From Aeromonas rivipollensis (GTDB lineage Bacteria; Pseudomonadota; Gammaproteobacteria; Enterobacterales; Aeromonadaceae), in contig NZ_CP149130.1 of NCBI RefSeq assembly GCF_037811135.1, positions 695,001 through 759,000 of the forward strand: a stretch of 64,000 nt of DNA. The letters run 5' to 3'. Every line of letters begins with the position of its first letter. Positions within the stretch are counted from its first letter, which is position 1. Made by a program: the position numbers and the translations under genes. The notes under the pieces are model-generated. The model was not told the DNA's origin, did no database searches, and saw only the letters and a program-made list of their open reading frames with translations. Positions 7,838 through 58,836 of the stretch are shown here, piece after piece.

Positions 7838-8509
7838 ATGAATATCAAGATGAACAGACTGCAGTCCCGTCTCGGGCATGTCTTTCAGGATCAAGAGCTG
7901 CTGACCCGGGCGCTGACCCACCGCAGCGCCGGTTCCCGTCACAACGAGCGACTGGAATTTCTGGGGGACTCCATCCTGAGTCTGGTGATTGCCGACGACC
8001 TCTTCCACCGCTTCCCGCAAGCGGCGGAAGGGGATCTCAGCAGGATGCGTGCCACCCTGGTGCGGGAGAAGACCCTGGCCGAACTGGGCCGGGAGTTCGA
8101 CCTCGGGGATCACCTGATCCTGGGGCCCGGCGAGCTGAAAAGCGGCGGGTTCCGCCGCGAGTCTATCCTGGCCGACACTGTCGAGGCGGTGATCGGCGCC
8201 GTCTATCTGGATACCGATCTGGAGCGGGTGCGGACCCTGTTGCTGGGCTGGTACGCCAGCCGCCTGGACGAGATCAAACCAGGCATAGAGCAGAAGGATC
8301 CCAAGACCCGGCTGCAGGAAATTTTGCAGGGAAGCCGCAAATCCCTGCCGACCTACACAGTGACCAACGTCAAGGGCGAAGCCCACAACCAGGAGTTCAC
8401 CGTCCAGTGTGACGTGGATGGCCTGGATGGTCCGCTGGTCGGGGTCGGCACCAGCCGCCGCAAGGCCGAACAGGCCGCGGCGCAGCAAGCTCTGGAAAGA
8501 CTGTCATGA
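7838..8509 (+). CDS. rnc: Ribonuclease III
   Basis: RNase III cuts double-stranded RNA, including rRNA precursors and regulatory duplexes. The 223 residues comprise the endonuclease domain with the signature [13 protein letters not shown] and the second acidic site [13 protein letters not shown], then a C-terminal double-stranded RNA-binding domain from about residue 155, ending [17 protein letters not shown]. The stop TGA (8507-8509) overlaps an ATG that opens a 21-codon frame rather than era itself. That frame ends in an imitation of the RNase III C-terminus (see the repeat at 8506-8571). Confidence 0.97.
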
Positions 8510-8571
8510 CTGCTATTGATGCAAGAGGCCGCGGTCTTTCAACACAACAGGCACTGGAAAAACTGTCATGA
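8506..8571 (+). repeat. rnc/era junction echo: 21-codon frame coupled to both genes
   Basis: ATG 8506 overlaps the rnc stop (ATGA). The frame encodes MT at its start (as era does) and ends QQALEKLS then TGA 8569-8571, overlapping the era ATG at 8568 (again ATGA). The real RNase III ends QQALERLS. The copy differs at nearly every third codon position (for example CAA CAG GCA against CAG CAA GCT), so it looks like a diverged allele rather than a fresh slippage. Distance between the two ATGs is 62 bp. Translation is unproven. Confidence 0.7.
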
Positions 8572-9473
8572 CGGATACAGATACTACCTATTGCGGCTTT
8601 GTCGCCATAGTGGGCCGCCCCAACGTGGGCAAGTCGACCCTGCTCAACAAGCTGCTTGGCCAGAAGGTCAGCATCACCTCGAAGAAGCCCCAGACCACCC
8701 GTCACCGGATCCTGGGGATCGACACCGAGGATAACTACCAGACCATCTATGTGGATACCCCGGGTCTGCACATCGAAGAGAAGCGGGCCATCAACCGCCT
8801 GATGAACCGTGCCGCCACCAGTTCCCTGGGGGATGTGGCCATGGTGGTGTTCATGGTCGACGGTACCCACTGGACCAAGGACGACGAGATGGTGCTCGGC
8901 AAGTTGCGCCACCTTCACTGCCCAGTGGTGCTGGCGGTCAACAAGATCGACAACGTCAAGGACAAGGAAGACCTGCTGCCCCACCTGGAGTGGCTGGGCC
9001 AGCAGATGAAGTTCTCCCACATACTGCCCATCAGCGCCGAGAAGGGCACCAACGTGGAGAAGATCCGCGAGTGGTCCAAGGCGCTGCTGCCGGAGAACGT
9101 TCACTTCTTCCCGGAAGACTACGTGACCGACCGTTCGTCCCGCTTCATGGCCTCCGAGATCATCCGCGAGAAGCTGATGCGCTTCACCGGCGAGGAGTTG
9201 CCCTACTCGGTGACGGTGGAGATCGAGCGCTTCAAGGTGGAAGAGAACGGCCTCTACCATATCCACGGCCTCATCCTGGTGGAGCGCGATGGCCAGAAGA
9301 AGATGGTCATCGGCAACAAGGGCGAGAAGATCAAGACCATAGGTACCGAGGCGCGCCTCGACATGGAGCGGCTGTTCCAGAACAAGGTGCACCTGGAGCT
9401 GTGGGTCAAGGTCAAGTCCGGCTGGGCCGATGACGAGCGCGCCCTGCGGAGTCTCGGCTATGGTGATGACTAA
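8568..9473 (+). CDS. era: GTPase Era
   Basis: Era binds the 3' end of 16S rRNA during 30S maturation and links GTP status to the cell cycle. The 301-residue protein has G1 GRPNVGKS, a switch-I region (KKPQTTRH), G3 DTPG, G4 NKID and a C-terminal KH domain with [13 protein letters not shown]. The start ATG is overlapped by the TGA of the short frame inserted between rnc and era. The two genes are therefore not directly joined here, though they commonly overlap in related genomes. Confidence 0.97.
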
Positions 9474-9487
9474 GTGGCGCTGAGCGA

Positions 9488-10198
9488 TTGCTGAGTCCGG
9501 CTTTCGTCATCCACAGTCGGCCCTATCGGGAGACCAGCCAGCTGGTCGAGGTCTTCACCCAGGATAGCGGCCGATTTACTCTGGTGGCTCGCGGTTCCCG
9601 CGGGCCACGCTCCCCTCTGAAGGGGCTGCTGCAACCCTTCACCCTGCTCACCATGAGCTGGCGTGGCAAGGGAGATCTCAAGAACCTCGCCCAGGTCGAA
9701 TGCCCTGATCACTCCCTGCGACTCGGTGGCGATCGCCTCTTCTACGGTCTCTATCTCAACGAGCTGGTCTACTACCTGCTCGAAGCCCATACCCCCTTTC
9801 CCGAGGTGTTCGATGCCTATGCCCGTGCCCTGATGGCGCTGGCGGACGGCGAGACACCTGAGCTGCCCCTGCGCCGCTTCGAGTTTCTGCTGTTGCAGGC
9901 CCTTGGCTATGCGGTGGATTTTGAATATGCCGCCGACGACGACTCCCCGATCCAGCCCGAGCTGCTCTACGGCTTCGAGCGGGAGCTTGGCTTTGTCGCT
10001 TGCGAGCGGGCGCCGGATCCCCGTACCCTGTTCCTCGGCGCCCACCTGCTGGCCTTCGCCGAGGGGTGCTTCGATACCCCTCCCTTGCTGCAGGCGGCCA
10101 AGCGTTTCAGCCGGCTGGCGCTGCAACCCTATCTGGGTAAGCGCCAGTTAAAGAGCCGGGAGCTGTTTTTAAAACGTAAAGCCAGCATGCAAGGCTGA
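9488..10198 (+). CDS. recO: DNA repair protein RecO
   Basis: RecO anneals strands and helps RecR load RecA on SSB-coated DNA. The 236-residue product has the N-terminal OB-fold (AFVIHSRPYRETSQLVEVFT) and the helical C-terminal domain. The only usable start in this frame after the era stop is TTG 9488, because an in-frame TGA lies at 9467. It is 14 bp downstream of era and followed by an 84-bp gap before pdxJ. Confidence 0.94.
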   Translation: MLSPAFVIHSRPYRETSQLVEVFTQDSGRFTLVARGSRGPRSPLKGLLQPFTLLTMSWRGKGDLKNLAQVECPDHSLRLGGDRLFYGLYLNELVYYLLEAHTPFPEVFDAYARALMALADGETPELPLRRFEFLLLQALGYAVDFEYAADDDSPIQPELLYGFERELGFVACERAPDPRTLFLGAHLLAFAEGCFDTPPLLQAAKRFSRLALQPYLGKRQLKSRELFLKRKASMQG

Positions 10199-10282
10199 CA
10201 CAGATTACAGACATATGGATATTGGCGCGGGGTGATTCGCTGACCGCGCAGTCAACAGATGAAGAGTTTCAAGGAGTCCTCA

Positions 10283-11020
10283 ATGAGTGAAATCTATCTG
10301 GGTGTGAACATCGACCATATCGCCACTCTGCGCAACGCCCGCGGCACCCAGTATCCCGATCCTGTCCAGGCCGCCTTCGTGGCCGAGCAGGCCGGTGCCG
10401 ATGGCATTACAGTGCACCTGCGCGAAGATCGCCGCCACATTACCGACCGCGACGTGGAAATACTGCGCCAGACCATCCAGACCAGGATGAACCTGGAGAT
10501 GGCGGTGACCGAGGAGATGATCGGCATCGCCTGCCGCATCAAGCCCCAGTTCGTCTGCCTGGTGCCGGAGAAGCGCACCGAGGTGACCACCGAGGGCGGT
10601 CTGGATGTGGCCGGTCAGCTCGACAAGATCACCGATGCGGTGACCCGCCTCGCCGCCGTCGGTGCCCAGGTGTCGCTCTTTATCGACGCCGACCCCATCC
10701 AGATAGATGCGGCCGCCGAGAGCGGCGCCCCCTTTATCGAGATCCACACCGGCCGCTACGCCGATGCCACCACCGATGCCGAGCGCAACGCCGAGTTCAA
10801 GCGCATCGCCGCCGGTGCCTCCTATGCCGCTGGCAAGGGCTTGAAGGTCAATGCCGGCCACGGTCTGCACTACCACAACGTCAAGGCCATCGCCGCCATC
10901 CCCGAGCTCTATGAGCTCAACATCGGCCATGCCATCATAGGCCGTGCCGCCTTCGACGGTCTGGCCAAGGCGGTCAGCGATATGCGGGCACTGATGCAAG
11001 AAGCCCGTCAGGGGATCTGA
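10283..11020 (+). CDS. pdxJ: Pyridoxine 5'-phosphate synthase
   Basis: PdxJ condenses 1-deoxyxylulose 5-phosphate with 3-amino-2-oxopropyl phosphate to make pyridoxine 5'-phosphate. The 245-residue TIM barrel begins [21 protein letters not shown] and keeps family motifs HLREDRRHI, the [12 protein letters not shown] phosphate-binding end and [14 protein letters not shown] at 10271 supports ATG 10283 over an upstream in-frame ATG at 10259. In E. coli and Vibrio acpS follows directly; here a terminator and the opposite-strand amidase follow instead. Confidence 0.97.
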
Positions 11021-11044
11021 TACCGGTCTGTCTGCATCGCACAG

Positions 11045-11075
11045 ACAAGGGACGCCTCGGCGTCCCTTGTTGTTT
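11045..11075 (+). terminator. Intrinsic terminator after pdxJ
   Basis: A 12-bp perfect stem (11045-11056 with 11059-11070) is followed by TGTTTTC. It closes the lepA-pdxJ transcript. Confidence 0.75.
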
Positions 11076-11089
11076 TCGGAGGAGGAGGC

Positions 11090-11222
11090 TCAGCCCGGCT
11101 CGGGGAAGTAACGCTCCAGCAGGGCCATAAGGATGGCCTGGCTCTCGGCATCCGGCTCCCCGCTGACCAGGGTGGGTCGGAAATGGAGCTGGTTAGCTAG
11201 GGGAGCGCATCTCGGTCCGGCT
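11090..11222 (-). pseudogene. Detached second copy of the amidase 3' end
   Basis: This stretch repeats the last ~33 codons of the amidase gene at 11261-12175, shifted by 171 bp and placed just beyond its stop. On the minus strand it reads through FRPTLVSGEPDAE and ends LLERYFPEPG plus TGA; the intact gene ends LLERYFPKPG. Most differences fall at third codon positions, with C to S, E to M and K to E changes. Toward 11222 the match weakens and has a small insertion. There is no start codon, so it is a fragment: a displaced allele tail or the remnant of a tandem copy. Confidence 0.75.
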
Positions 11223-11260
11223 TGGGAACACGTTGCTTCAGCGGAAACCTAAGGACGGCA

Positions 11261-12175
11261 TCAGCCCGGCTTGGGGAAGTAACGCTCCAGCAGGGCCTCG
11301 AGGATGGCCTGGCACTCGGCATCCGGCTCCCCGCTGACCAGAGTGGGTCTGAAATGAAGCTGGAAGGCGCGCATCGCGGCGCGGCTCTGCTCATCCCAGG
11401 CGCCGCTTGGCGCTACCCCATAGCCGTAGCGGGCGAGTCGTTGTTGCCATTGCTGCGCATCCCAGAGGGGGAGCTGCGTCTGGCGCAGCTCGGCCACTCT
11501 GGCCTCGTCTGGCCAGGCGCCGACGCCATGGTGCAGGGCCAGCTCGCGCCAGGGGAAGTAGGGGCCGGGATCCTGCTTGCGTTCGGGGGCTATGTCGCTG
11601 TGGGCCAGCACCTGGGTGGGGGGAATGCGATAACGATCGACCAGATCCCGGGTGAGGGCGCCGAGGGCGGCGATCTGTGCCCGAGTATAGGGTTGCCAGC
11701 GCCTCAGGTGGGCGGGCAGGGATTCGTCTTCCGTGGGATAACCCAGATTGACTATCTCAATGCCCAGCGAGCTGGCGTTGAGCCCGGCATACTGATGCCA
11801 GCGGCTGCGACCGGCGTGCCAGGCACGCTGGCTGTCGGGCACCAGCTGGTAAACGGGGAGCGGGCGTTGCTCGGTGTCGCGGGGGATCAGGTAGTGGGCA
11901 CTTACTTTGTAATCTGATGCGGTCAGCAGATGCAGGGAGCGGGCGTCGTCCTCGTCGGTGTAGTGGAGGATCAGAAAAGCGATGCGCTCATTCTGGTTGG
12001 CACTGATATGACGGGTAGAGAGCTGATAAGGCGCCGGTTGGCAGGCGCCGAGCCCCAGCAGCAGGCAGAGTGACAGCAGTATGGTGCGGCATCTGTCTGG
12101 CCAGGGGGAAACAAGGGATGGCCAGCGCGGCCTGCCGCCCAGGCGGAATGACGGGGGGCAGGTGCGCTGGCCCAT
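11261..12175 (-). CDS. amiD: N-acetylmuramoyl-L-alanine amidase, lipoprotein (AmiD-like)
   Basis: This 304-residue protein likely cleaves the amide between MurNAc and the peptide of murein or anhydro-muropeptides from the outer membrane. A basic N-terminus leads to a lipoprotein signal with lipobox LGLGAC. The Amidase_2 domain follows, with zinc ligands in ILHYTD and AHSDIAP and the conserved acidic KQDPGPYF. The C-terminus (from about residue 235) is a peptidoglycan-binding domain (ARYGYGVAPSGAWDEQSRAAM). It sits downstream of yehS on the same strand, with short duplicated ends on both its 5' and 3' sides. Confidence 0.85.
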   Translation of the reverse strand: MGQRTCPPSFRLGGRPRWPSLVSPWPDRCRTILLSLCLLLGLGACQPAPYQLSTRHISANQNERIAFLILHYTDEDDARSLHLLTASDYKVSAHYLIPRDTEQRPLPVYQLVPDSQRAWHAGRSRWHQYAGLNASSLGIEIVNLGYPTEDESLPAHLRRWQPYTRAQIAALGALTRDLVDRYRIPPTQVLAHSDIAPERKQDPGPYFPWRELALHHGVGAWPDEARVAELRQTQLPLWDAQQWQQRLARYGYGVAPSGAWDEQSRAAMRAFQLHFRPTLVSGEPDAECQAILEALLERYFPKPG

Positions 12176-12178
12176 GGC

Positions 12179-12220
12179 TCAGGCGCGCTGTCTGAGGGTG
12201 ACGCGCGCGCGCGGGCTCAT
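12179..12220 (-). repeat. yehS/amiD junction echo: 13-codon frame
   Basis: The yehS stop overlaps an ATG (12220) that opens a 13-residue frame beginning MSPRARV and ending TGA at 12181-12179, three bases before the amidase ATG. The sequence around the two ATGs is alike (GAGCCATG then GCC and GCGC), 45 bp apart, so the second junction looks like a copy of the first. It resembles the rnc/era case but is shorter and less certain. Confidence 0.45.
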
Positions 12221-12702
12221 GGCTCTGACCTGTACTTGGCGGTGAGGCCGATGAGGAAGTTGCGCAGGATCTGATCCCCGCAATCCTGGTAGTGCTTGTG
12301 ATCCTTGGCGCGGAACAGGGCGCTCAGCTCGGACTTGGAGAGGTTGAAGTTGGCGAGCTTGAGGGTGCCCAGCATGTCTTCTTCCTTGTAGTCGAGGCCG
12401 ATGCGCAGCTTGCGCAGGATCAGGTTGTTGTTGATCCGGTTCGGGATCACCTGGGGCGGGGCATTTTCCCGCACACCGCGACGCACGGCGATGAAGCCGT
12501 CGAGGAACTGGCTCAGGGCCGAGTCCGGGCAGGCGGCATAGCCTGCTTCCTGCTCTTCCCCTTCCGCTGCCTCTTTCAGCAACCAGCTGTGGAGCTGGGC
12601 GTGGGTGACAGTCAGGTTGCCCTTGGCAAACATCTCGACCATCTGATCGTTGCTGATGGTGAGGGCGTAGCGCAGGCGGCGCAGAATATCGTTGTTGGTC
12701 AT
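12217..12702 (-). CDS. yehS: YehS-family protein (DUF1456)
   Basis: This is a 161-residue cytoplasmic protein with two copies of a helical module, MTNNDILRRLRYALTISND and NNNLILRKLRIGLDYKEED, each followed by a conserved hydrophobic helix. This internal duplication is typical of the DUF1456/YehS family. The function is not known. The gene precedes the amidase on the minus strand, with its stop (12217-12219) overlapping the ATG of a short intervening frame. Confidence 0.85.
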   Translation of the reverse strand: MTNNDILRRLRYALTISNDQMVEMFAKGNLTVTHAQLHSWLLKEAAEGEEQEAGYAACPDSALSQFLDGFIAVRRGVRENAPPQVIPNRINNNLILRKLRIGLDYKEEDMLGTLKLANFNLSKSELSALFRAKDHKHYQDCGDQILRNFLIGLTAKYRSEP

Positions 12703-12765
12703 GTTGACTCCTGTGGAAACGGCGCGATTTTACCATCTGCGGGCCTCGCAGTCAGAAAAAGCGCC

Positions 12766-15482
<2,717 letters not shown>

Positions 15483-15486
<4 letters not shown>

Positions 15487-15605
15487 GCTGATAAACCGCC
15501 GGCAAACATGATGAAGACCATAGCCCGGGGGGCCTGTGGGCGCAGGGGGAGGGCTGGCAATACAGTCGATGTCACCGTACGGGCGCTCAGGCCGTATCCT
15601 GTCAT
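15483..15605 (-). repeat. barA 5' echo, proximal copy (40-codon frame)
   Basis: The minus-strand ATG at 15605 opens a 40-residue frame starting MTGYGLSAR and keeping a T-x-LP pattern at the same spacing as BarA (MTKYGLRAR ... TILP). It ends at TGA 15485-15483, overlapping the barA ATG (15486-15484) as ATGA. Distance from the barA start is 119 bp. After about 20 codons the similarity to BarA stops. No promoter or independent function is visible. Confidence 0.75.
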
Positions 15606-15682
15606 ATCAATGGGCCACTTATGGTCAGATTGGGCAATGGGGCAGAGGCCGCAGCTCGGGCCTTCAGGCCGCATTTGGTCAT
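15602..15682 (-). repeat. barA 5' echo, distal copy (26-codon frame)
   Basis: A second copy lies 77 bp further upstream: ATG 15682, 26 residues beginning MTKCGLKAR and including LPNLTISG, ending at TGA 15604-15602. That TGA overlaps the ATG of the proximal copy. Three start-like units are therefore chained by ATGA overlaps: distal, proximal, then barA itself. It lies between barA and rlmD, so it probably sits within the barA 5' leader. Confidence 0.72.
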
Positions 15683-15758
15683 ACTATTATTCTTGTGGGA
15701 CAATGGCCTGCTGCAGATTCCACAATCATGACATAGCCACCTATAGGCACCAAGTTTT

Positions 15759-17081
15759 ATGGCCCAGTTTTTCAAGCCCCAAAAGAAATCCACCCAGCCC
15801 CAACGTATTGAATTTACGATAGACAGTCTGGACCACCACTGTGTCGGTGTCGGCCGTCATCAGGGCAAGGCCATCTTCGTCGAAGGGGCACTCCCCGGTG
15901 AGCTGATCAAGGCTCGCATCGTCGATGACAAGAAGCACTATGCCCACGCCGCCCTGCAACAGATAGTGACCCCGGCGGCCAATCGCATCGATCCCTTCTG
16001 CCCCCATTATCGCGAGTGCGGCGGTTGCAGTGCCCAGCACCTCGGCGAAGCGGATCAGCAGGCGGTCAAGGAAGCCGGGCTGATCAGCCTGTTCGAGCGC
16101 CTTGGCAACATCAAGGCTCCGGCGCTCGAGCCCGTGCTCAAGGGAGAGTCCCGCGCCTACCGCCGGGTCTGCCGTCTCGCCATCAAGTTTGACAAGAACG
16201 GTCGCTGCACCAGGGTGGGTTTTCGTCGCCGTCAATCCAATGATCTGGTGGAGGTAGCGGGCTGCCCCGTGTTGGCCGATCCCCTCTCTGCCCTTATCAC
16301 GCCCCTGCGCGACTGCCTCAATCGCTTGAAGAGCCAGCGCGAGCTGGGCCATGCGGAGCTCATCCAGGCCGAACAGGGCATCATGATGCTGCTGCGCCAC
16401 ACAGGTCGCCCCAACGAGGCGGATCGCGCCCTGCTGGTGGCGTTTGCCGAGGCCCAGGGGATAGACCTCTACCTTCAGGCGGCGGATGAACGCATCGAAC
16501 CCCTGCGCCAACAATTTCAGCCGAGCTACACCCTTGATGGCCTGTCTCTTGCATTCGCCCCTGGCGACTTCATTCAGGTCAACGGCCCCATCAACCAGAG
16601 CATGGTGACCCAGGCGCTGGCGTGGCTGGGGGCGACCAAGGACGACAAGGTGCTGGATCTCTTCTGCGGCATCGGCAACTTCACCCTGCCGCTGGCCCGT
16701 CAGTCCCGTGAAGTGGTGGGGGTCGAGGGGGAGCTCGCCATGGTGGCCCGTGCCGAGGAGAATGCCCGTCGCAACGGCATCGACAACGCCCGTTTCTACA
16801 AGGCGGATTTGAGCGGTGACATAGTCGGCATGTCCTGGGCGCGGGAAGGCTTCGATCTGGTGCTGCTGGATCCGGCCCGGCCCGGGGCGCTGGAAGTCAT
16901 GAGCCACGTGGCGGCACTTTCGCCCAAGCGGGTGGTCTATGTTTCCTGTAACCCTGTCACCCTGGCCCGGGACAGCCAGGTGCTGGTGAAGGGGGGTTAT
17001 CGACTGGCCCGCCTGGGGATGCTGGACATGTTCCCCCACACCGGCCATCTGGAGTCCATGGCGCTGTTTGAACGGGATTGA
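15759..17081 (+). CDS. rlmD: 23S rRNA (uracil-1939-C5)-methyltransferase
   Basis: RlmD (RumA) uses SAM to methylate U1939 of 23S rRNA. The 440-residue protein starts with a TRAM RNA-binding domain, then the iron-sulfur ligands in CPHYRECGGC, and a C-terminal Rossmann methyltransferase with DLFCGIGNFTLPLA. The catalytic cysteine lies in VYVSCNPVTLARD. It is divergent from barA. Its last codons (ALFERD, stop) are followed 76 bp later by a similar coda (ALFEQG, stop). Confidence 0.97.
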   Translation: MAQFFKPQKKSTQPQRIEFTIDSLDHHCVGVGRHQGKAIFVEGALPGELIKARIVDDKKHYAHAALQQIVTPAANRIDPFCPHYRECGGCSAQHLGEADQQAVKEAGLISLFERLGNIKAPALEPVLKGESRAYRRVCRLAIKFDKNGRCTRVGFRRRQSNDLVEVAGCPVLADPLSALITPLRDCLNRLKSQRELGHAELIQAEQGIMMLLRHTGRPNEADRALLVAFAEAQGIDLYLQAADERIEPLRQQFQPSYTLDGLSLAFAPGDFIQVNGPINQSMVTQALAWLGATKDDKVLDLFCGIGNFTLPLARQSREVVGVEGELAMVARAEENARRNGIDNARFYKADLSGDIVGMSWAREGFDLVLLDPARPGALEVMSHVAALSPKRVVYVSCNPVTLARDSQVLVKGGYRLARLGMLDMFPHTGHLESMALFERD

Positions 17082-17127: not shown

Positions 17128-17157
17128 ATGCCGGTAGCGCTGTTTGAGCAGGGGTGA
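17128..17157 (+). repeat. rlmD 3' echo
   Basis: ATG 17128 to TGA 17155-17157 reads MPVALFEQG, imitating the RlmD C-terminus SMALFERD; the shared block GCGCTGTTTGA is at 17061 and again at 17137. The copy is short, so chance similarity is possible. It is listed because the same pattern recurs at other gene ends in this window. Confidence 0.4.
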
Positions 17158-17286: not shown

Positions 17287-17332
17287 GCAGAAAGCATCGG
17301 CTTTCGGCCCCACAATTTTAAGGATTGATACC

Positions 17333-19606: not shown

Positions 19607-20404
19607 ATGTCCCCACGTTACGACTTGCCTCAACTGCTCGACATCATGGCCCAATTGCGCGACCCGAACGGGGGTTGCCCCTGGGATCTCAAGCAGAGCT
19701 TCCAGACCATAGTGCCCCACACCCTGGAGGAGGCCTACGAGGTCGCCGATGCCATCGAGACCCAGGATTGGGACGGATTGAAGGGAGAGCTTGGGGATCT
19801 GCTGTTCCAGGTGGTCTTCTACGCCCAGCTTGGCAAGGAGCAGGGGCTGTTCGATTTTGCCGATATCGTCGATGCGGTGAGCGAGAAACTCATTCGCCGT
19901 CATCCTCATGTGTTCTCCGATGCAGACCTCGGTGACGAGCAGGCGGTCAAGGTGAACTGGGAAGCTGAAAAGGCCAAGGAGCGGGCCGCCCTCGACAGGG
20001 AGAGCGTGCTGGACGACATCCCGCTCTCGCTGCCGGCCCTGACCCGGGCCGCCAAGATCCAGAAGCGCTGCGCCACCGTCGGCTTCGACTGGAAGACCCT
20101 CGGCCCTGTGGTAGACAAGATCCACGAGGAGATCGAAGAGGTGATGGAAGAGGCGCTGATGGTCGACGTGGACGAAGAGAGGGTCAGCGACGAGCTCGGC
20201 GATCTGCTGTTTGCCACCGTCAATCTGGTGCGCCATCTGGGCAAGGATCCTGAGCAGGTGCTGCGGGGCGCCAACGCCAAGTTCGAACGCCGTTTTCGTC
20301 AGGTTGAGCAGTTTATTGCCGCGGAAGGGCTGAAAATGACCGATTGCACCCTGGAGAAGCTGGATGCAGCCTGGGGTCGGGCCAAGGAAACCGAGCAAAG
20401 TTGA
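19607..20404 (+). CDS. mazG: Nucleoside triphosphate pyrophosphohydrolase MazG
   Basis: MazG hydrolyses NTPs and dNTPs to monophosphates and counters abnormal nucleotide or ppGpp pools. The 265-residue protein has the usual two MazG domains. The first carries [27 protein letters not shown] and [13 protein letters not shown] (EExxD-type metal ligands); the second has [13 protein letters not shown] and [16 protein letters not shown]. It sits next to relA as in E. coli. Confidence 0.95.
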
Positions 20405-24896: not shown

Positions 24897-24962
24897 ATGA
24901 TCCGCATTGGACATGGTTTTGATGAGACAGATTTCTGTGTATTGAGGGGGGATCAGGCATGA
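24897..24962 (+). repeat. ispF 5' echo: 21-codon frame coupled to ispF
   Basis: ATG 24897 begins [10 protein letters not shown], against [10 protein letters not shown] for IspF; nucleotides match closely over about 27 bases with synonymous changes (CGC/CGA, GAT/GAC). The frame then diverges and stops at TGA 24960-24962, overlapping the ispF ATG at 24959 (ATGA). The ribosome-site-like GAGGGG before each ATG is also shared. The ATG-to-ATG distance is 62 bp, as at rnc/era. Confidence 0.78.
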
Positions 24963-25435
24963 TGCGAATTGGACATGGTTTTGACGTGCACAAGTTTGGC
25001 GGGGTTGGCCCCTGCATGCTGGGTGGCGTCCCGGTACCCTATGAACAGGGCCTGCTGGCCCATTCCGATGGTGACGTTGTGCTGCATGCGGTGAGCGATG
25101 CCCTGCTGGGAGCCATCGGCGCCGGCGACATTGGTCGCCACTTCCCCGATACCGCAGCGCAATTCAAGGGGATCGACAGCCGCATCCTGCTGCGGGACGT
25201 CTTTGCCCGGGTACAGCAGGCGGGCTACGCCATCGGCAACCTGGATGTGACCATCATCGCCCAGGCTCCCAAGATGGCGCCCCATATCGCGGCCATGTGC
25301 GCCGTGCTGGCGGCCGATCTGCAATGTGATTTGAACCGGGTGAATGTCAAGGCGACCACCACTGAACAACTCGGGTTTACGGGGCGCAAGGAAGGGATCG
25401 CCACCGAAGCCGTCGTCTTACTGGTGAAACAATGA
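24959..25435 (+). CDS. ispF: 2-C-methyl-D-erythritol 2,4-cyclodiphosphate synthase
   Basis: IspF closes the cyclodiphosphate ring in the MEP pathway. The product (158 residues, or 157 from the second ATG) has the metal ligands in GHGFDVH, the [17 protein letters not shown] motif and [17 protein letters not shown]. Two adjacent ATGs (24959, 24962) are possible; the first overlaps the stop of the duplicated start. It overlaps truD by 4 bp (ATGA). Confidence 0.97.
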
Positions 25436-49635: not shown

Positions 49636-49713
49636 TGCGCGGGGGCACAACCCCCGGCGTTGATGGATAACGTCGCTTGCACAGGCAATAAATCCTGTGC
49701 TCTGATGAACGAA

Positions 49714-49742
49714 ACGGGGGCTTTAGGCCCCCTTCTTTTTTG
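49714..49742 (+). terminator. Terminator after the MFS gene
   Basis: GGGGGC and GCCCCC around a short loop followed by TTCTTTTTT. Confidence 0.8.
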
Positions 49743-49808
49743 GGCGCAACCTCGCCAGGTGTCTATCATCAGGTGCCTATCATATTGGACAGTTCAGCGG
49801 AGAATCCC

Positions 49809-51167: not shown

Positions 51168-51401
51168 ATGAACAAAGTACTGGTAGCCGGTATCCTGGGT
51201 CTGATGTTGACCGCCTGTGGTCAGAAAGAAGAAGCCGCCGCTCCGGCTGCTACTCCGGCCGCCGACGTTGCTGCAACTGTTAGCGAAGCTGCCTCTACCG
51301 TAGAGAAGGCCGCTTCCGAAGCGTCTGCTACCGTCGAGAAGGCTGCTGCTGACGTGGCCACCAAGGCAGAAGCTGCTGTGAGCGATGCCAAGGCCAACTA
51401 A
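51168..51401 (+). CDS. Small Ala-rich lipoprotein
   Basis: A 77-residue protein with a short lipoprotein signal and lipobox LTAC, then an Ala/Glu/Val-rich body with an imperfect repeat (SEAASTVEKAASE, SATVEKAAADV), probably one long helix. GAGGG at 51156-51160 supports ATG 51168 over ATG 51162. It looks like an abundant envelope lipoprotein of the Lpp or entericidin type by size, but there is no real sequence match. A strong terminator follows. Confidence 0.75.
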   Translation: MNKVLVAGILGLMLTACGQKEEAAAPAATPAADVAATVSEAASTVEKAASEASATVEKAAADVATKAEAAVSDAKAN

Positions 51402-51414
51402 GCCTGCACCTCAT

Positions 51415-51454
51415 AAAAAAACGGGCCCGGCGGTAACGCCGGGCCCGTTTTTTT
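51415..51454. terminator. Strong bidirectional terminator
   Basis: An 18-bp perfect stem (51415-51432 with 51437-51454) including A- and T-runs on both sides of a GTAA loop. It separates the lipoprotein from the convergent ybbJ-like gene. Confidence 0.95.
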
Positions 51455-51484
51455 ATGGCCACTGTGGGGGCAGATACTGCCCGG

Positions 51485-51940
51485 TCAGGGCAGCGGCTCC
51501 ACCAGCAGTATGTGGGAGTCGGCCCCCACCACCTTGACCCGGCTGCCCGCCGGCAGCGGCACAGGGCAGCGCACCGTCCAGACGGTGTCATCCAGATGCA
51601 CCCGGCTGGTGCCCTGGCTCACCTCATCCAGCAGTGTCAGCTCCCGCCCCAGATAGCTCTGCATCCGCTCGTTGATGGGGGCGGCCGCATCGCGGCTCGA
51701 GCGGTCGCGCTTGTGCTGCCAGCGCCACCAGGCCCAGGTGGTCACCAGGGACTGCGCCGCAAACAACAGCAGCTGGGCCTGCCAGCCGAAGGGCCAGAGC
51801 AGCAGGATCAGCCCCACTTCCAGCGCGGCTATGCCGGTCCAGAGCAGAAAGCCCACCGACCCCAGCACTTCGATGGCCAGCAGCACGAAGCCGAGCCCCA
51901 GCCAGTGCCAGTGGGTCAGCCCCTCGAACAGGGCTGTCAT
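51485..51940 (-). CDS. ybbJ: NfeD-family membrane protein (YbbJ-like)
   Basis: A 151-residue protein with two or three membrane helices at the N-terminus ([27 protein letters not shown]) and a C-terminal OB-fold ([23 protein letters not shown]). NfeD proteins pair with stomatin-like SPFH proteins. It overlaps qmcA by 4 bp (ATGA), the same partner as in E. coli. Confidence 0.88.
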
Positions 51941-52860
51941 GACTTGTCGACCTTGCCATCTTTGTTGAACAGCTCGGCCATGCCCGCCACCGAGCCAATC
52001 AGGCTGCCCGCCTCCAGCGGCATCATGATGATCTTGCTGTTGGGCCCCTCACCGATGCGGGCTAGCGCCTCTGTGTATTTCTGGGCCACGAAGTAGTTGA
52101 TGGCCTGCATATCCCCTTCCGCTATAGCTTTTGAGACCATATGGGTCGCCTTGGCTTCCGCCTCGGCGGCACGCTCCCGCGCCTCGGCGGCGAGGAAGGC
52201 GGCCTGACGTTCCCCCTCGGCCTTGAGGATCTGGGACTGCTTCTCCCCTTCCGCTTTCAGGATCTTGGACTGGCGTACCCCTTCGGCCTCCAGCACCTCG
52301 GCCCGCTTCTGCCGCTCGGCCTTCATCTGGGCATTCATGGCTTCCACCAGGGCCAGCGGCGGGCGCACATCCTTGATCTCGATCCGGGTCACCTTGATGC
52401 CCCAGGGGGCGGTGGCGGCATCCATGGTGCGCAGCAGCTTCTCGTTGATGGTGTCGCGCTGGGAGAGCATCTCGTCCAGCTCCATGGCACCGAGCACGGT
52501 GCGCATGTTGGTCATGGTGAGATTGCGGATGGCGCTGGTGAGATCGTTGACCTCATAGGCTCCCTTTCGGGCATCCACCACCTGCACGAAGCTGATGGCG
52601 TCTATGGTGACGTTGGCGTTGTCCCGGGAGATCACCTCCTGGGCCGGGATGTCCAGCACCTGCTCCATCATGATGATCTTGTGGCCGACTCTGTCCACAT
52701 AGGGGATCAGCAGGTTGAGACCGGGGGAGAGGGTACGGGTGTAGCGGCCGAAGCGCTCCACAGTCCAGTTGAAACCCTGGGGCACTATCTTGATGCCCGC
52801 GCTCAGGGTGGCCAGCACCAGGAACACGAAGATCCCCAGCACAATCAATGACTCATTCAT
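51937..52860 (-). CDS. qmcA: SPFH/stomatin-family protein QmcA
   Basis: This 307-residue protein has one N-terminal membrane helix ([18 protein letters not shown]), the SPFH/band-7 domain ([22 protein letters not shown] ...), and a charged coiled coil with the repeat [20 protein letters not shown] near residues 205-225. Family members assemble into membrane microdomains and modulate proteases. It precedes ybbJ on the minus strand. Confidence 0.93.
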
Positions 52861-53058
52861 GGTAAAGCTCCTTATGAAACACTTTCACTAGCCTAGAGTC
52901 TGGTGCGAACCACCACAAGGACATTCGCTCCCCTTTGCCACGACATGGTTTTACTAATTACTAAAACGCATTAAAGAGCATTTTTTATTATTTTGAGGGA
53001 TAAGGACTCCTGCCTATAGTCGCCCCAGATGTCGTCGTATGCCGAGGAGTGGGCCCTG

Positions 53059-54489
53059 ATGGATTATTTACCTATGTTTGCCAGGTTGGAAGGCCGCCCG
53101 GTATTGCTGGTGGGCGGGGGCGAGGTTGCCCTGCGCAAGGCGCGCCTGCTGCTGGCGGCAGGTGCCCGGCTGACCCTGGTTTCTCCCGAGACTGAACCCG
53201 AATTCGCCGAATTTGCCGGCCGTTTCACCCATCTGGTCGAGCGTTTCAGCCCGGCTCATCTGGCCGGCCAGATCCTGGTGGTGGCCGCCACCGACAGCCT
53301 CGAGGTCAACGCCCTCGTCTATCAGAGCGCCAACCAGCTCGGGCTCTTTGTGAATGTGGTGGACGACCCCGAGCGTTCCAGCTTTATCTTCCCCTCGATC
53401 ATCGACCGCTCGCCCCTGATGGTGGCCGTCTCCAGCGGCGGTAAGGCCCCCGTGCTGGTGCGCCTGCTGCGCGAGCGGCTCGAGAGCCTGCTGCCCCGCC
53501 ATCTCGGTGGACTGGCCGAGCTCTCGGGCCGGGTGCGGGTCAAGGCCAAGCGGGTGCTTGCTTCTCTCTCGGATCGCCGCCGCTTCTGGGAGCGGGCATT
53601 TGCCTCCAACACCCTCGCCGGTCTGATTGAGAAAGAGGATTGGCAGGGGGCAGAGGGTTGGCTCAATGAGGGGCTCGACAAAGCCCAAAGCGAAGTGGGC
53701 GAGGTGGTGCTGGTGGGGGCGGGCCCAGGGGATCCTGGCCTGCTGACCCTCAAGGCGCTGCAACAGATCCAGCAGGCTGAAGTGGTGCTCTATGACCAGC
53801 TGGTCTCCCCGGAGATCCTGGACCTGGTGCGCCGGGACGCCACCCTGGTGTCGGTCGGCAAGAAGGCCGGTGCCCACAGCGTGCCCCAGGAGGAGACCAA
53901 TCGCCTGCTGGTGGAATACGCCAGGGCGGGCAACCGTGTGGTGCGGCTCAAGGGGGGAGATCCCTTCATGTTCGGCCGCGGCGGTGAGGAGCTGGAAGTG
54001 CTGGCAGAGGAAGGTATCCCCTTCTCGGTGGTGCCCGGCATCACGGCCGCCGCTGGCGCCACCGCCTATGCGGGCATACCGCTCACCCACCGCGACCATG
54101 CCCAGAGTGCCGTCTTCATCACCGGCCACTGTCAGAAGGAGGGCAAGGAGCCCGACTGGCAGCAGCTCGCCGCCACCAACCAGACCCTGGTCATCTACAT
54201 GGGGCTGATGCGCTCCGAGCACATCCAGCAACAGCTGGTGAGCCATGGCCGAGGCCAGGTCACCCCTATCGCCATCATAGAGCGGGGCACCACCGCCCGT
54301 CAGCGCGTGCTGACCGGCACCCTGGCTGACCTTGCCGTACTGGCCGAGCAGGCAGTTAGCCCGTCGCTCATCGTCATCGGCGAGGTGGTGGCTCTGCGCA
54401 AGCAGCTCGCCTGGTTTGGCGAGCAGGGTGGCGAGCAGACCGAAACAGAGGCGAGCCGCCACGAACTGAAGCTGGTGAGCCTGGCCTGA
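53059..54489 (+). CDS. cysG: Siroheme synthase CysG
   Basis: CysG makes siroheme for sulfite reductase. The 476-residue protein has the N-terminal precorrin-2 dehydrogenase/ferrochelatase ([17 protein letters not shown]) and the C-terminal uroporphyrinogen-III methyltransferase ([34 protein letters not shown]). ATG 53059 follows GAGGAG; the frame is open a little further upstream. It heads the cysG-D-N-permease-C operon. Confidence 0.96.
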
Positions 54490-54596
54490 GCCCGGCCACG
54501 ACAGCAACCGATTAGACGGTGCGGCCAAGGCGGCACCGAACTGAACCAGAACAGCGCCCCGAGCCGGCGCGATAGCAATGAACCGAGGACCCAGAC

Positions 54597-55505
54597 ATGG
54601 ACCGTGAAAGACTGACACACCTGCAACAGCTGGAAGCCGAGAGCATCCACATCATCCGCGAGGTGGCCGCCGAATTTGAAAACCCGGTGATGATGTACTC
54701 CATCGGCAAGGACTCCTCCGTCATGCTGCACCTGGCCCGCAAGGCCTTCTATCCGGGCAAGATCCCCTTCCCCCTGCTGCACGTGGACACCAACTGGAAG
54801 TTCAAGGAGATGATCAAGTTCCGGGACGAGACCGCCAGGAAGTACGGGCTGGATCTCATCGTCCACAAGAACCCGGATGGTCTCGCCATGAACATCAACC
54901 CCTTCGTGCACGGCAGCGGCAAGCACACCGACATCATGAAGACAGAGGGGCTCAAGCAGGCGCTCAACCAGCACGGCTTCGACGCCGCCTTCGGCGGTGC
55001 CCGCCGCGACGAAGAGAAGTCCCGCGCCAAGGAGCGGGTCTACTCCTTCCGTGACAAGTCCCACCGCTGGGATCCGAAGAACCAGCGCCCGGAGCTGTGG
55101 CGGGTCTACAACAGCCAGGTCAACAAGGGGGAGAGCATCCGTGTGTTCCCGCTCTCCAACTGGACCGAACTGGACATCTGGCAATACATCTATCTCGAGA
55201 ACATCGACATAGTGCCGCTCTACTTTGCCGCCCATCGCCCTGTGGTGGAGCGCAATGGCATCAAGATCATGGTGGATGACGAGCGCATGCCCATAGGCCC
55301 GGAAGACGAAGTGAAGCAGGAGCTGGTGCGCTTCCGCACCCTCGGCTGCTACCCGCTGACCGGGGCCATCGAATCCAATGCCACCACCCTGCCCGAGATC
55401 ATCGAAGAGATGCTGCTCACCACCTCGAGCGAGCGGCAAGGGCGGCTCATCGACCACGATCAGGCCGGCTCCATGGAGCAGAAGAAGCGTCAGGGATATT
55501 TCTAA
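54597..55505 (+). CDS. cysD: Sulfate adenylyltransferase subunit 2
   Basis: CysD activates sulfate to APS together with CysN. The 302-residue PP-loop protein has [14 protein letters not shown] and [12 protein letters not shown]. It is followed at 11 bp by cysN. Confidence 0.97.
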
Positions 55506-55516
55506 GGAATCGCATC

Positions 55517-56944
55517 ATGAACAACCATATTCAGACCGCCATCAGCGAACAGGGCATTGAAGCCTACCTGCACGCCCAGCAGCACAAGAGCCTGCTGCGT
55601 TTTCTCACCTGCGGCAGCGTGGACGACGGCAAGAGCACCCTCATCGGCCGCCTGCTGCACGACTCCCAGCAGATCTATGAAGATCAGCTCAAGGCGCTGG
55701 AGTCCGACAGCCAGAAGCTCGGCACCACCGGCGAGAAGCTGGACCTGGCACTGCTGGTGGACGGCCTGCAGGCGGAGCGCGAGCAGGGCATCACCATCGA
55801 CGTGGCCTACCGCTATTTCTCCACCGCCAAGCGCAAATTTATCATCTCGGACACCCCGGGCCACGAGCAGTACACCCGCAACATGGCCACCGGCGCCTCC
55901 ACCTGCGATCTCGCCATCATCCTGATCGATGCCCGCAAGGGGGTGCTGGATCAGACCCGTCGCCACAGTTTTATCGCCAGCCTGCTCGGCATCAAGCAGT
56001 TCGTGGTGGCGGTCAACAAGATGGACCTGGTGGAGTTCAGCCAGGAGGTGTTCGATCGCATCAGCCTGGAGTACCGCGAGTTCGCCAAGAAGCTCAGCGT
56101 CGACAGCATCCACATAGTGCCGGTCTCGGCCCTGGACGGTGACAACGTGGTCAACCAGAGCGACAAGCTGGCCTGGTACCAGGGCGAGACCCTGCTCGCC
56201 CTGCTGGAGTCTGCCGAAGTGGAGCGCGAGCTGGAGCGCCACCCGGTGCGCCTGCCGGTGCAGTACGTGAACCGCCCGAACCTCGATTTTCGCGGCTTCG
56301 CGGGCACGCTCGCCTCCGGTATCCTGCGGGTCGGCGACCGGCTGGCGGTGCTGCCGTCCGGCAAGGAGAGCACTGTCACCCGCATCGTCACCTTCGATGG
56401 GGATCTGGACTACGCCCTGCCGGGTCAGGCCATCACCGTCACCTTCGCGGACGAGATCGACATCAGCCGGGGTGACCTGCTGGTGGATGCGGCGAAAAAG
56501 CCCCAGGTGACCCAGAACCTGCTGGCTCACATCGTCTGGATGGGGGAGGAGTCCCTGCAACCGGGCCGGGTCTACGACGTCAAGCTGGCCACCAAGAAGA
56601 GTCGCGGTCAGGTGGAGGCCATCCGCCACCGCATCGAGATCAACAAGCTGGACGAGCTGCCCGCCTCCGAGCTCAAGCTCAACGAGATTGGCCTGTGCGA
56701 ATTCAGCCTGACCGATCCTGTGGCGTTCGACCCCTACAAAGAGATCCGCGATACCGGCAGCTTCATCCTGATCGACCGGCTGACCAACGTCACAGTGGGG
56801 GCGGGCATGATAGTGGAAGGGTTGGCGGCCAAGGTAGTCAAAGGGCACTACAGCGAGTTCGAAATCGAGCTCAACGCCTTGGTACGCAAGCACTTCCCGC
56901 ACTGGCAAGCCCTTGCCATCGGTAACGACACAAGCAAGGAGTAA
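55517..56944 (+). CDS. cysN: Sulfate adenylyltransferase subunit 1 (GTPase)
   Basis: CysN couples GTP hydrolysis to APS synthesis. The 475-residue protein has G1 [11 protein letters not shown]3 [16 protein letters not shown] and G4 NKMD, with EF-Tu-like domains behind. It is not fused to CysC, whose gene lies downstream of an intervening permease. Confidence 0.97.
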
Positions 56945-56948
56945 GCCC

Positions 56949-58673
56949 ATGACCTGGCAACAATCCCTGGTGCTGGGTCTGCTGGCTGCCCTCGTCGCCC
57001 TGCTGATCCAGGGCAAACTCCGGCCGGCGCTGCTCTTCTCGGGCGCCGTGCTCATCACCTATCTGAGCGGCCTGGCGGACATCAACGCCGTGGTGGCGGG
57101 CTACACCAACAGCGCCCTGCTGACCCTGGTGTTGCTGCTGCTGGTGTCGCTCGCGGTGGAGAAGACCCGGATCATGAGCTGGTTCGCCAACCTGGTGGGC
57201 ACCGGCTCCTTCAACAAGGTGCTGGTCAAGGTGTGGTTCTCCACCGCCTTCCTGTCGGCCTTCGTCAACAACACCGCCGTGGTGGCCTCCATGCTGGGGG
57301 CGGTCAAACGCAACCCCAACCATGCCCCCTCCCGGCTGCTGCTGCCCATGTGCTTCGCGGCCACCTTTGGCGGCGTGCTGACCCTGATCGGCACCTCCAC
57401 CAACCTCATCGTCAACAGCTTCCTCATCAAGATGGGGGCGCCGCCGCTCGGCATGTTCGACTTCTTCATGGTGGGGGCGGGAACCCTGCTGACCGGCCTT
57501 GTCGCCGTGCTGCTGTTTGCCCGCCACCTGCCGGAGCAGGACACAGAGATGAGCCGGGAATCCGGCTACTTTCTCGAGGCCAAGGTGGGCCCCGGTTCCC
57601 CCATGGCCGGGCGCAGCGTCAAGGAGAACGGCCTGCGCAGCCTCAAAAGCCTCTACCTCGCCGAGATCATCCGGGGCAACCAGGTGATCTGCCCGGTGCA
57701 GCCGGAACACGAGCTGCACGAGGGGGACATGCTGCTGTTTTGCGGCGACGTGGAGAGCGTCGGCGTGCTGCAGGAGCTCAAGGGGCTGGATCTCTACGGC
57801 CAGCACCGCCTCAACGGCCAGCACCTGGTGGAGGTGATCGTCAGCCACAGCTCGCGGCTGGTGGGTCAGACCATCAAGGATGCGGAGTTTCGCACCCACT
57901 TCGATGCGGTGGTGCTGGCGGTGCGCCGGGGCGAGACCCAGCTCACCGGCGGCCTCGGCCAGATTGAGCTGCACGCGGGGGATACCCTGCTGCTGGCGCC
58001 GGGCCCCAAGTTTGCGGGCAACAAGTCCCTGTCGCGGGAGTTCGTGGTGGTGAGCGGGCTGGAGGCCTCCACCCGGCTCGATGGCAAGCGCAGCGCCGCC
58101 GTGGTGCTGGGCTTTCTCGGGGTGCTGGCGCTGTCGGTGTTCGATCTGGTGCCGCTGTTCAAGGGGCTGCTGGTGATGCTGGTGGTGCTGCTCTTCTCCC
58201 GCATCCTGACCCTGGACGAGATCCGCCGCCGCTTTCCCCTCGACATCTGGCTGGTGGTGGGCGGGGCGCTGGCCATCGCCGATCAGCTGGAGAAGAGCGG
58301 CCTGGCCAGGTTGATTGCCGACTGGCTGATGGGGGAGTTCAACGGTTCCAGCCCTATCATCGCCTTTATCGGCATCTACCTGTTTACCCTGGTGCTGACC
58401 GAGCTGATGAGCAACAACGCCGCCGCGGCTCTGGCCTTCCCCATGGGTTACCAGCTGGCGCTCAGCATGGACGTCTCCACCATGCCGTTTATCCTGGCGG
58501 TGCTGTTCGGGGCGAGTTCCAGCTTCATACTGCCCTACGGCTACCAGACCAACCTCATGGTCTATGCGGCGGGCAACTACAAGATGCCGGATTACCTCAG
58601 GCTGGCGGTGCCTGTCTCCCTGGCCTACAGCATCGGAGTGATCGTCATGGTGCCCCTGCTGTTTCCGTTTTAA
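56949..58673 (+). CDS. SLC13-family permease with TrkA-C domains
   Basis: A 574-residue transporter with about 11 membrane helices and two cytoplasmic TrkA-C domains in the middle (GSPMAGRSVKENGL..., LVGQTIKDAEFRTHFDAV...). SNNAAAALAFPMGYQLA and LTLIGTSTNLIVNSFL are the SLC13-type hairpin motifs (NT and NN sites). From its place inside the cys operon it probably imports sulfate, or possibly thiosulfate, with Na+. It is 4 bp after cysN. Sulfate specificity is inferred from context. Confidence 0.85.
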   Translation: MTWQQSLVLGLLAALVALLIQGKLRPALLFSGAVLITYLSGLADINAVVAGYTNSALLTLVLLLLVSLAVEKTRIMSWFANLVGTGSFNKVLVKVWFSTAFLSAFVNNTAVVASMLGAVKRNPNHAPSRLLLPMCFAATFGGVLTLIGTSTNLIVNSFLIKMGAPPLGMFDFFMVGAGTLLTGLVAVLLFARHLPEQDTEMSRESGYFLEAKVGPGSPMAGRSVKENGLRSLKSLYLAEIIRGNQVICPVQPEHELHEGDMLLFCGDVESVGVLQELKGLDLYGQHRLNGQHLVEVIVSHSSRLVGQTIKDAEFRTHFDAVVLAVRRGETQLTGGLGQIELHAGDTLLLAPGPKFAGNKSLSREFVVVSGLEASTRLDGKRSAAVVLGFLGVLALSVFDLVPLFKGLLVMLVVLLFSRILTLDEIRRRFPLDIWLVVGGALAIADQLEKSGLARLIADWLMGEFNGSSPIIAFIGIYLFTLVLTELMSNNAAAALAFPMGYQLALSMDVSTMPFILAVLFGASSSFILPYGYQTNLMVYAAGNYKMPDYLRLAVPVSLAYSIGVIVMVPLLFPF

Positions 58674-58722
58674 GGCGCAACCCTCTTCGTTTTGGGGCCT
58701 TGATGCCTCCCAAGGAGTTTGA

Positions 58723-58836
58723 ATGAGCAATACCATGGCATCAGCAAGTTATCGGCTGACAGTCCGAGTCGGCTCCCCGTGGTGGCGGACAGTTTCAGTG
58801 TTGAGGCGTGAGCGCCAATCAAGGAGTGTTGGATGA
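58723..58836 (+). repeat. cysC 5' echo: 37-codon frame coupled to cysC
   Basis: ATG 58723 begins MSNTM (ATGAGCAATACC), imitating cysC (MSNIVW, ATGAGCAATATC), and each has AAGGAG just upstream. The frame diverges at once, runs 37 codons and stops at TGA 58834-58836, overlapping the cysC ATG at 58833 (ATGA). The offset is 110 bp. It is another example of the start-copy pattern; the match to cysC is shorter than at ispF or barA. Confidence 0.6.

Follow-up and report, generated by a model that had tools for sequence, protein, structure and literature searches.

The genome of Aeromonas rivipollensis contains many short tandem duplications, and those copying a gene start are probably kept by selection as termination-reinitiation leaders of the gene that they precede. 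The first-pass annotation of the window, i.e. the whole analysed stretch of 64,000 nucleotides, had offered a duplication-generating mutational process and the retention of short leader frames as alternatives. Since duplications are about 7 times commoner than in the other gammaproteobacteria sampled and the coupled stop-start geometry lies far above its null expectation, both are supported, acting together and not as mutually exclusive explanations.

Copies of gene starts and gene ends in the window

Five start copies, in front of era, barA (two), ispF and cysC, had been described as open frames ending in a TGA that overlaps the next ATG, and reading of the DNA confirmed all of them. The era leader ORF (8506..8571, + strand, 21 aa) is a copy of the junction between the rnc end and the era start; its start overlaps the rnc stop as ATGA, and its stop overlaps in the same form the start of era, which encodes the GTPase Era (8568..9473, + strand; NF000908.1, TIGR00436.1). 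Direct reading and a repeat search gave an offset of 62 with 38 nt at 79% for era, the rnc end included, and an offset of 62 with 31 nt at 90% for ispF (24959..25435, + strand; TIGR00151.1), whose start copy (24897..24962, + strand) forms a leader ORF of 21 aa stopping on the ispF ATG. The cysC start copy (58723..58836, + strand) provides a leader ORF of 37 aa which stops on the ATG of the adenylyl-sulfate kinase gene cysC (58833..59423, + strand; NF003013.0), with an offset of 110 and matches of 17/24 and 19/33.

The start of the hybrid sensor kinase gene barA (12766..15486, - strand; NF008318.0) is present in three 56-nt copies, which are 68-71% identical to the reference copy. The distal start copy (15602..15682, - strand) carries a leader ORF of 26 aa beginning at 15682 (offset 77) and stopping on the ATG at 15605, from which the proximal copy (15483..15605, - strand; offset 119) extends as a leader ORF of 40 aa to stop on the barA ATG at 15486. 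These copies are preceded by an older ORF of 16 aa (15679..15729, - strand; MIVESAAGHCPTRIIV followed by a stop), which is ATGA-coupled to the first barA copy and is not itself derived from barA. The 16-aa frame was recovered by script in genomes G018 and G032 and read with identical sequence in the window; a related open frame was read in A. diversa and G029.

The most prominent tail copy lies downstream of the amiD stop, where 11090..11192 (strand not given) duplicates 11261-11363 over 103 nt with 92% identity and an offset of 171, as a 3'-end copy without a leader; the gene earlier named amiD matches only an AmpD-type model, below the cut-off. The 3'-end copy of rlmD (17134..17157, + strand) is short and diverged (18/24 to 17058-17081, offset 76), and rlmD-tail copies also occur in three other species at different offsets. 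The yehS/amiD repeat (18/24, offset 45) is weak and was not relied on. Of the seven sites originally claimed, the four with start copies (two of these at barA) and the amiD tail stand firmly, whereas the rlmD tail and yehS/amiD are weak.

Duplication excess and stop-start geometry in the genome

In the 1.727 Mb covered of this genome (G000; 38% of its length), 71 near-tandem duplications with an offset not divisible by three were detected, corresponding to 41/Mb. By comparison, a non-Aeromonas control of 52 era loci (1.025 Mb) contained 5 and random stretches of five other genomes (0.392 Mb) contained 3, both sets being mostly not GC-matched, and locally shuffled G000 DNA yielded 2 phase-1/2 duplications. 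Pooling the other gammaproteobacteria (8 in 1.42 Mb) results in a rate ratio of 7.3 (p 2e-11), G000 being higher. The detection threshold was 27/30 for offsets divisible by three and 23/30 otherwise. Relative to random placement the duplications are enriched at gene boundaries, and among 96 classified by site, 35 touch only a gene end, 24 only a gene start and 12 both. Gene starts were taken from our own gene finder, which missed several and several times, faced with two near-identical starts, picked the wrong one, an error easily made in annotation wherever such copies occur.

As to the origin of the units, slippage between long pre-existing repeats was set aside upon looking over ten younger duplications (selected by identity and run length), which is not a formal test; in five of the ten the near-complete two-copy run falls 1-7 nt short of the offset, so that no long microhomology is visible. 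Insertion of a mobile element was likewise rejected, as the own genome contains no second era unit: a search with the era junction (E up to 0.001; era unit alone) returned five other matches, none of them in the unit and all in the era coding part (query 162-227).

The geometry of the start copies was analysed on 31 copies in register in G000, 25 of which retain the start codon. In 18 of these 25 the frame terminates at the real start or shortly beyond it, compared to 15.1% of 37,652 simulated duplications (p 2.7e-10; 7e-9 with in-frame fusions removed from the null). In-frame fusions, which fall under the stricter detection threshold, are absent among the start copies and make up 18% of the null. 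Eleven coupled rows stop at the -4 or -1 spacing and seven between +2 and +12 relative to the ATG; two of the 18 represent a single duplication viewed from both strands (3609552/3609610). By phase, the start-retaining copies divide into 14 of phase 2, 8 of phase 1, including barA, whose offset was taken as the sum of its two phase-2 units, and 3 of phase 0, a count not comparable with the others owing to the stricter threshold for multiples of three; in these three the stop lies upstream. The first-pass annotation had named 2 mod 3 as the only phase permitting the ATGA overlap, which holds for that overlap, but genome-wide other phases are kept as well; given that 14 of the 18 coupled rows show spacings of -4, -1 or -8, it is the main phase, not the sole one.

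Thirteen of the 31 start copies, among them 7 of the 25 start-retaining ones, are not coupled in G000: six are without an upstream start codon, six stop upstream and one stops beyond +12. The copy at 312433, which belongs to the first group, would be coupled if the true start lay six bases upstream, at a GTG; the second group includes barA, measured over two units, and mutL, whose copy stops 6 nt before the gene's start.

Outside the window, 1.66 Mb contained 25 coupled pairs of frame and start with at least 20/33 identity, compared with 2.3 for permuted partners and a single pair in non-Aeromonas DNA (1.42 Mb); at 22/33 identity the numbers are 16 and, with permuted partners, 0.16. The idea that the first-pass annotation had merely singled out chance similarities and a phase coincidence draws on the selection of striking cases and on the weakness of the yehS/amiD and rlmD repeats, but it is contradicted by the genome-wide excess and by the permutation and simulation controls, and we consider it practically negligible. 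The Shine-Dalgarno match of the real start is stronger than that of the copy in 13 of 21 pairs, equal in 7 and weaker in 1. At the 21 duplicated genes the mean duplex energy is -7.3, compared with -5.5 over all called genes, weak values being found at era (-3.3) and parC (-2.9).

Persistence and constraint across the genus

The copies are variable within the genus. The era unit is found in 18 of 37 genomes (17 by script, plus G020), and the loci era, barA and ispF have 0, 1 or 2 units per genome. For cysC, single-copy in A. media, the variation is deduced from match coordinates only. At parC the unit is present in G000 and, judged by coordinates, single-copy in G023 of the same species; among the genomes compared, G000, G003, G018 and G020 are the only ones whose parC match spans the unit without a break. 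Despite this turnover, of the 49 combinations of genome and gene counted for era, barA and ispF in relatives, 48 are coupled. The 57 leader units listed (era 18, barA 28, ispF 11), a list restricted to frames with a stop from -25 to +15, end at -4 in 55 cases and once each at -1 and -8. Where the first-pass annotation had foreseen a missing genome-wide excess or frame-breaking changes in relatives if its idea were wrong, an excess was found, and the exceptions seen in relatives were an apparently decayed ispF copy in G036 (32/62 matches, start and frame lost) and, in three genomes, start copies at the 19607-20404 gene that are not coupled. The frame of the barA copy is broken in A. lusitana and A. 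tecta, and yet a chain of two shorter frames, joined by ATGA overlaps, leads into barA.

A purely mutational origin, in which duplications arise often, damaging ones are eliminated immediately and the leaders are neutral debris of this one-time filter, fits the high duplication rate, tail copies without a coding role being at least as frequent as start copies (35 versus 24), their repeated occurrence at amiD, rlmD and the 9488-10198 gene, where the offsets differ, and the variation of units inside one species (parC in G000 versus G023). It does not readily explain why frames and stop-start overlaps remain intact despite sequence divergence, or why leader lengths shift by multiples of 3 or re-couple (G018/G032, G010). 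The product probability that five leader families all stay open under random substitution, with as many changes as observed, is 2e-6, a rough star-tree estimate for leaders that had been picked as open. We therefore regard neutral debris as rather unlikely, and selection for the coupled leaders as the better account.

The peptides themselves are weakly constrained at most loci, with leader pN/pS values of 0.38-1.0 against 0.03-0.07 in the bodies of barA and ispF. An action of the peptides, e.g. as stalling or attenuation peptides regulating each gene, appears improbable: pN/pS is 0.65-1.0 in the barA, 65-nt era and 77-nt ispF leaders, every leader duplicates the start or junction of the gene that it precedes, these genes have unrelated functions, and the peptide conservation by which a regulatory leader peptide is recognised was not found at most loci. 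In its favour, the 62-nt leaders are more conserved (era 0.42, ispF 0.38) and near-invariant in several species. At fourfold sites the era leader shows a conservation of 0.98 versus 0.81 for era and rnc, which exceeds what mere openness needs and counts against the coupled-leader account. Such conservation beyond that of neighbouring synonymous sites might alternatively reflect junction blocks spread by homologous recombination between species, the conserved 62-nt leaders being products of recent exchange and not of selection. This possibility, which deserves some though limited credence, agrees with the patchy presence of the era and parC units described above and with the ispF leader of A. 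bivalvium, which differs from that of the window at one position; it leaves the duplication excess and the genome-wide stop-start geometry unexplained.

Proposed mechanism and known systems

Combining selection with frequent duplication, we propose the following scenario. Aeromonas, seemingly with the exception of the branch of diversa, simiae and G029, gathers short tandem duplications of about 40-200 bp. If a gene start lies within the duplicated segment, the upstream copy retains the original upstream region, and its frame is out of step with the real gene except where the unit length is divisible by three. Such duplications are probably tolerated, and later kept, if the stop of this frame falls at the start codon of the real gene or shortly beyond it, in the form of TGA inside ATGA, TAATG or TGATG, or NTGNNTGA. 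The leaders are presumably translated, an indirect hint being that their frames remain open as the sequences diverge, and ribosomes ending a leader may re-initiate on the downstream gene and thereby feed its expression. If the unit begins approximately at the ATG, as seems to be the case in barA, the gene would then depend on its leader, which could be lost only by exact deletion between the repeats; such a ratchet might render the leader indispensable. More speculatively, a small-duplication process specific to Aeromonas might repeatedly make bicistronic leaders from a gene's own start, leader number and length serving as an adjustable and reversible translation setting. If so, it would cover core genes such as era, barA, parC, ftsX, dapF and anmK, with none, one, two or more leaders, and would offer a route for the birth of upstream ORFs which turn indispensable.

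If the scenario is correct, one genus provides dozens of young and old cases of a single origin of bacterial upstream ORFs and ATGA overlaps, i.e. tandem duplication of a gene's own start followed by filtering through the reading frame. It would also constitute a natural experiment on the stop-start spacings accepted by cells, contain a possible ratchet from accident to required leader, and draw attention to a lineage whose excess of short duplications still awaits an explanation. Searches on start-copy leaders, overlaps and small duplications revealed no earlier description among the open-access papers covered, as far as titles and the opening lines of abstracts go.

According to two papers, natural coupling occurs at spacings of -4, -1 and -8, and re-initiation drops steeply with distance (PMC12548453, PMC10666635). 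The same spacings, known from termination-reinitiation in overlapping gene pairs (-4 as NTGA, -1, -8), are shared by the 14 coupled rows noted above, and in both situations the downstream start is where the upstream frame terminates. However, natural pairs join two genes, whereas in Aeromonas a fragment copied from the start of the downstream gene itself serves as the upstream frame; in the cases seen such frames measure 11-54 aa, and they are gained or lost within the genus. Like regulatory upstream ORFs and leader peptides of bacteria, the Aeromonas leaders are short frames ahead of a gene and overlap its start; in contrast to these, they are weakly constrained at most loci studied and born by local start duplication. 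With close direct repeats, small tandem duplications and VNTRs they share adjacent units whose copy number varies between species, but they are enriched at gene boundaries and keep a coding geometry at gene starts. In synthetic biology, bicistronic designs use a short translated leader whose stop overlaps the gene start; the Aeromonas leaders differ in being natural, gene-specific and self-derived.

Start copies within the window

Direct reading of the junctions in the window (G000:C1:695001-759000 of the single-contig, 4.55-Mb genome G000) confirmed the start copies, i.e. diverged near-tandem duplicates of gene starts, reported in the first-pass annotation before era (offset 62), barA (two, offsets 77 and 119), ispF (offset 62) and cysC (offset 110). 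As described there, each copy starts at an ATG and remains open up to a TGA that forms part of the next ATGA. Also clear is the tail copy of amiD (92% over 103 nt); the copies proposed for the rlmD tail and for yehS/amiD are recognisable at only 18/24 matches each. Past cysC (window 60000-64000) the GC content falls to 0.43 and the ORFs include a nucleotidyltransferase-domain protein, a SnoaL-like protein and a peptidase S9/hydrolase-like fragment, perhaps marking a recently acquired stretch.

Readable in the window sequence is a 16-aa frame (MIVESAAGHCPTRIIV; 15679-15729, minus strand) whose ATGA end lies on the first barA copy. The frame was detected by script in A. lusitana and A. tecta (G018, G032), and an early stop interrupts the same reading in A. 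simiae. In A. diversa and the genome G029, sequence reading showed a changed version that ends directly on the start of barA, so that coupling of barA to a small upstream frame may predate any copying. What was ancestrally the upstream sequence is now found ahead of the first copy, and before the real gene stands the terminal part of a copy instead; a dependence of barA on its putative leader, the upstream frame of the copy, is therefore likely.

Near-tandem duplications in the genome and the genus

The genome was sampled in 84 stretches of 20 kb which, together with the window, amount to 1.744 Mb (17.5 kb N) or 38% of its length and carry 1,458 genes called with a purpose-built codon-model finder. 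A scan at offsets of 40-260 bp, requiring at least 23/30 matching bases (at least 27/30 for offsets divisible by three), yielded 96 near-tandem duplications. They touch a gene end in 35 cases, a gene start in 24 and both in 12, with 13 intergenic and 12 intragenic, as compared to 8.5, 9.1, 4.7, 9.4 and 64.3 expected from random placement. This excess at boundaries may partly be a detection effect, because a copy that contains conserved coding sequence should remain identifiable for a longer time than an intergenic one.

The genome-wide excess of such repeats anticipated by the first-pass annotation was found. Duplications with offsets not divisible by three number 71 in 1.727 Mb of G000 (41/Mb), 5 in 1.025 Mb at 52 non-Aeromonas era loci, 3 in 0.392 Mb sampled at random from five other genomes and 2 in locally shuffled G000. 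The pooled rate ratio against the other gammaproteobacteria is 7.3 (p 2e-11), in a comparison mostly not GC-matched, the five random-stretch genomes having GC contents of 0.39-0.52, below the 0.61 of G000. In GC content a closer match is the branch of A. diversa, A. simiae and G029, with values of 0.58-0.63 in five of its six stretches and 0.52 in the sixth. With one duplication in 119 kb there versus 59 in 0.601 Mb (98/Mb, the same loci being counted in many species) in the other Aeromonas relatives, it is apparently the genus apart from this branch, whose sample is small, that shows the excess. We are dealing with a lineage of frequent short duplications. Along the G000 chromosome, six 20-kb stretches at 2.0-2.5 Mb contain none with offsets not divisible by three and 11 stretches at 4.0-4.5 Mb contain 15; the duplication process or its retention may vary with position.

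Certain gene ends behave as if they were duplication hot spots, with tail copies found repeatedly at one gene but at offsets that change from species to species: 171, 121, 97 and 114 for amiD, 76, 100, 178 and 58 for rlmD, and 94 and 82 for the gene at window 9488-10198, which we take by position to be recO (located in the window and the fetched stretches L039, L040, L043, L051, L056, L058, L063 and L064).

Variation and conservation among Aeromonas species

The era unit is present in 18 of 37 genomes (17 by script, plus G020), twice in A. bivalvium, and a single rnc/era junction was read in the remaining 19. Among the 23 genomes with barA in the fetched stretch, the script detected one or two units in 18; A. 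lusitana and A. tecta carry a reworked unit, its two shorter frames being linked into barA through ATGA overlaps, and no unit is present in A. diversa, A. simiae and G029. Units of ispF occur in 10 of 15 genomes. Judged from match coordinates only, the number of cysC units varies as well, from a single copy in A. media to extra pieces in G001, G007, G011, G030 and G034. The parC match crosses the unit without a break in G000, G003, G018 and G020; in G023, of the same species as the window, the match halves overlap on the target, which points to a single copy of the unit there.

Frame-breaking changes in sister genomes, which would speak against maintenance of the leaders, are rare at era, barA and ispF. 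Counting each gene in each genome that has a copy as one case, the leader is coupled, i.e. stops on or just past the real start, in 48 of 49 (era 18, barA 20, ispF 10 of 11); the script that listed most of them was confined to frames stopping between -25 and +15. In a frame-blind scan of these genes, 32 of 41 start rows could be read as coupled directly; the other nine (four sums of two units, five miscalled starts) proved coupled once units and starts were taken as in the script and re-read. Exceptions are an apparently decayed ispF copy in G036, devoid of start and open frame, and, in the same scan, three uncoupled rows at the gene 19607-20404, presumably mazG by position.

For 44 leaders that had been selected for being open, pN/pS lies between 0.65 and 1.0 in the families of barA, 65-nt era and 77-nt ispF and between 0.38 and 0.42 in the two 62-nt families (ispF and era), compared with 0.03-0.07 for the barA and ispF gene bodies. 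Were the observed number of changes placed at random, the members of five families would all stay open with a product probability of 2e-6, in a star-tree approximation and for leaders so chosen. Fourfold sites of the 62-nt era leader are unusually conserved in nine genomes (0.98 versus 0.81 for era and rnc), reflecting either added constraint or recent interspecies exchange. In 21 pairs of leader and real start, the real start has the stronger Shine-Dalgarno match 13 times and the leader once, with seven ties.

Stop-start geometry of the copies

In 31 of the 37 start-touching rows of G000 the second copy holds the real start. Six of these lack an upstream start codon, one of which (row 312433) would count as coupled if its true start were a GTG lying six bases farther upstream. 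In the 25 start-retaining rows the frame stops at a spacing of -4 or -1 in 11 (nine and two), at +2 to +12 of the real ATG in seven, beyond +12 in one and upstream in six, including barA measured at the sum of two units; 37,652 simulated duplications gave 10.7% (-4/-1), 4.4%, 24.0% and 41.6%, respectively. In-frame fusions, 17.9% of the simulation, are absent from the 25 rows, under the stricter threshold (27/30) for offsets divisible by three. Coupling thus characterises 18 of 25 rows versus 15.1% simulated (p 2.7e-10), two of the 18 being one duplication between divergent genes counted on both strands. All short frames whose end falls between -2 and +11 relative to an ATG were also counted independently. 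Beyond the window, 1.66 Mb yielded 25 frame/start pairs with at least 20/33 identity versus 2.3 for permuted partners, and 16 versus 0.16 at 22/33 or more; 1.42 Mb of non-Aeromonas sequence gave one and none, respectively. The geometry of the start copies is probably selected for.

Among the genes preceded by a coupled copy are parC, ftsX, dapF, menB, anmK, a taurine dioxygenase and a pdxR-type regulator, whose family matches exceed the curated cut-off, and ybbA-like, tesA-like, fhuC-like and yqiA-like genes, whose matches fall below it. The mutL frame stops 6 nt ahead of the start, and the upstream copy of aceF lacks a start codon. Between the divergent ybbA-like and tesA-like genes, a 59-bp duplication (L135:9537-9625; G000 ~3609537-3609625) provides an ATGA-coupled leader for each gene, one per strand. 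Start copies may occur in clusters: at G000 ~4015934-4024343 three of them lie within ~8 kb (those of parC, of the yqiA-like gene and of a third gene that matched no family at the applied cut-off).

Offsets of 2 modulo 3 are the only ones that permit an ATGA overlap, as the first-pass annotation stated, but they are not the only ones retained genome-wide: eight start-retaining rows are of phase 1. Three of these stop at +5 in a NTGNNTGA (-8) overlap, single rows stop at +8, +11 and +14, and the remaining two stop upstream. Start-spanning duplications appear to persist chiefly where the displaced upstream frame terminates on the real start; they then look like termination-reinitiation leaders. 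No earlier description of start-copy leaders was found in the open-access papers searched. Re-initiation drops steeply with distance, as reported in PMC10666635. The spacing is -4, -1 or -8 in 14 of the 18 coupled rows, and the same three spacings are those enriched in natural gene pairs, as stated in a review (PMC12548453).
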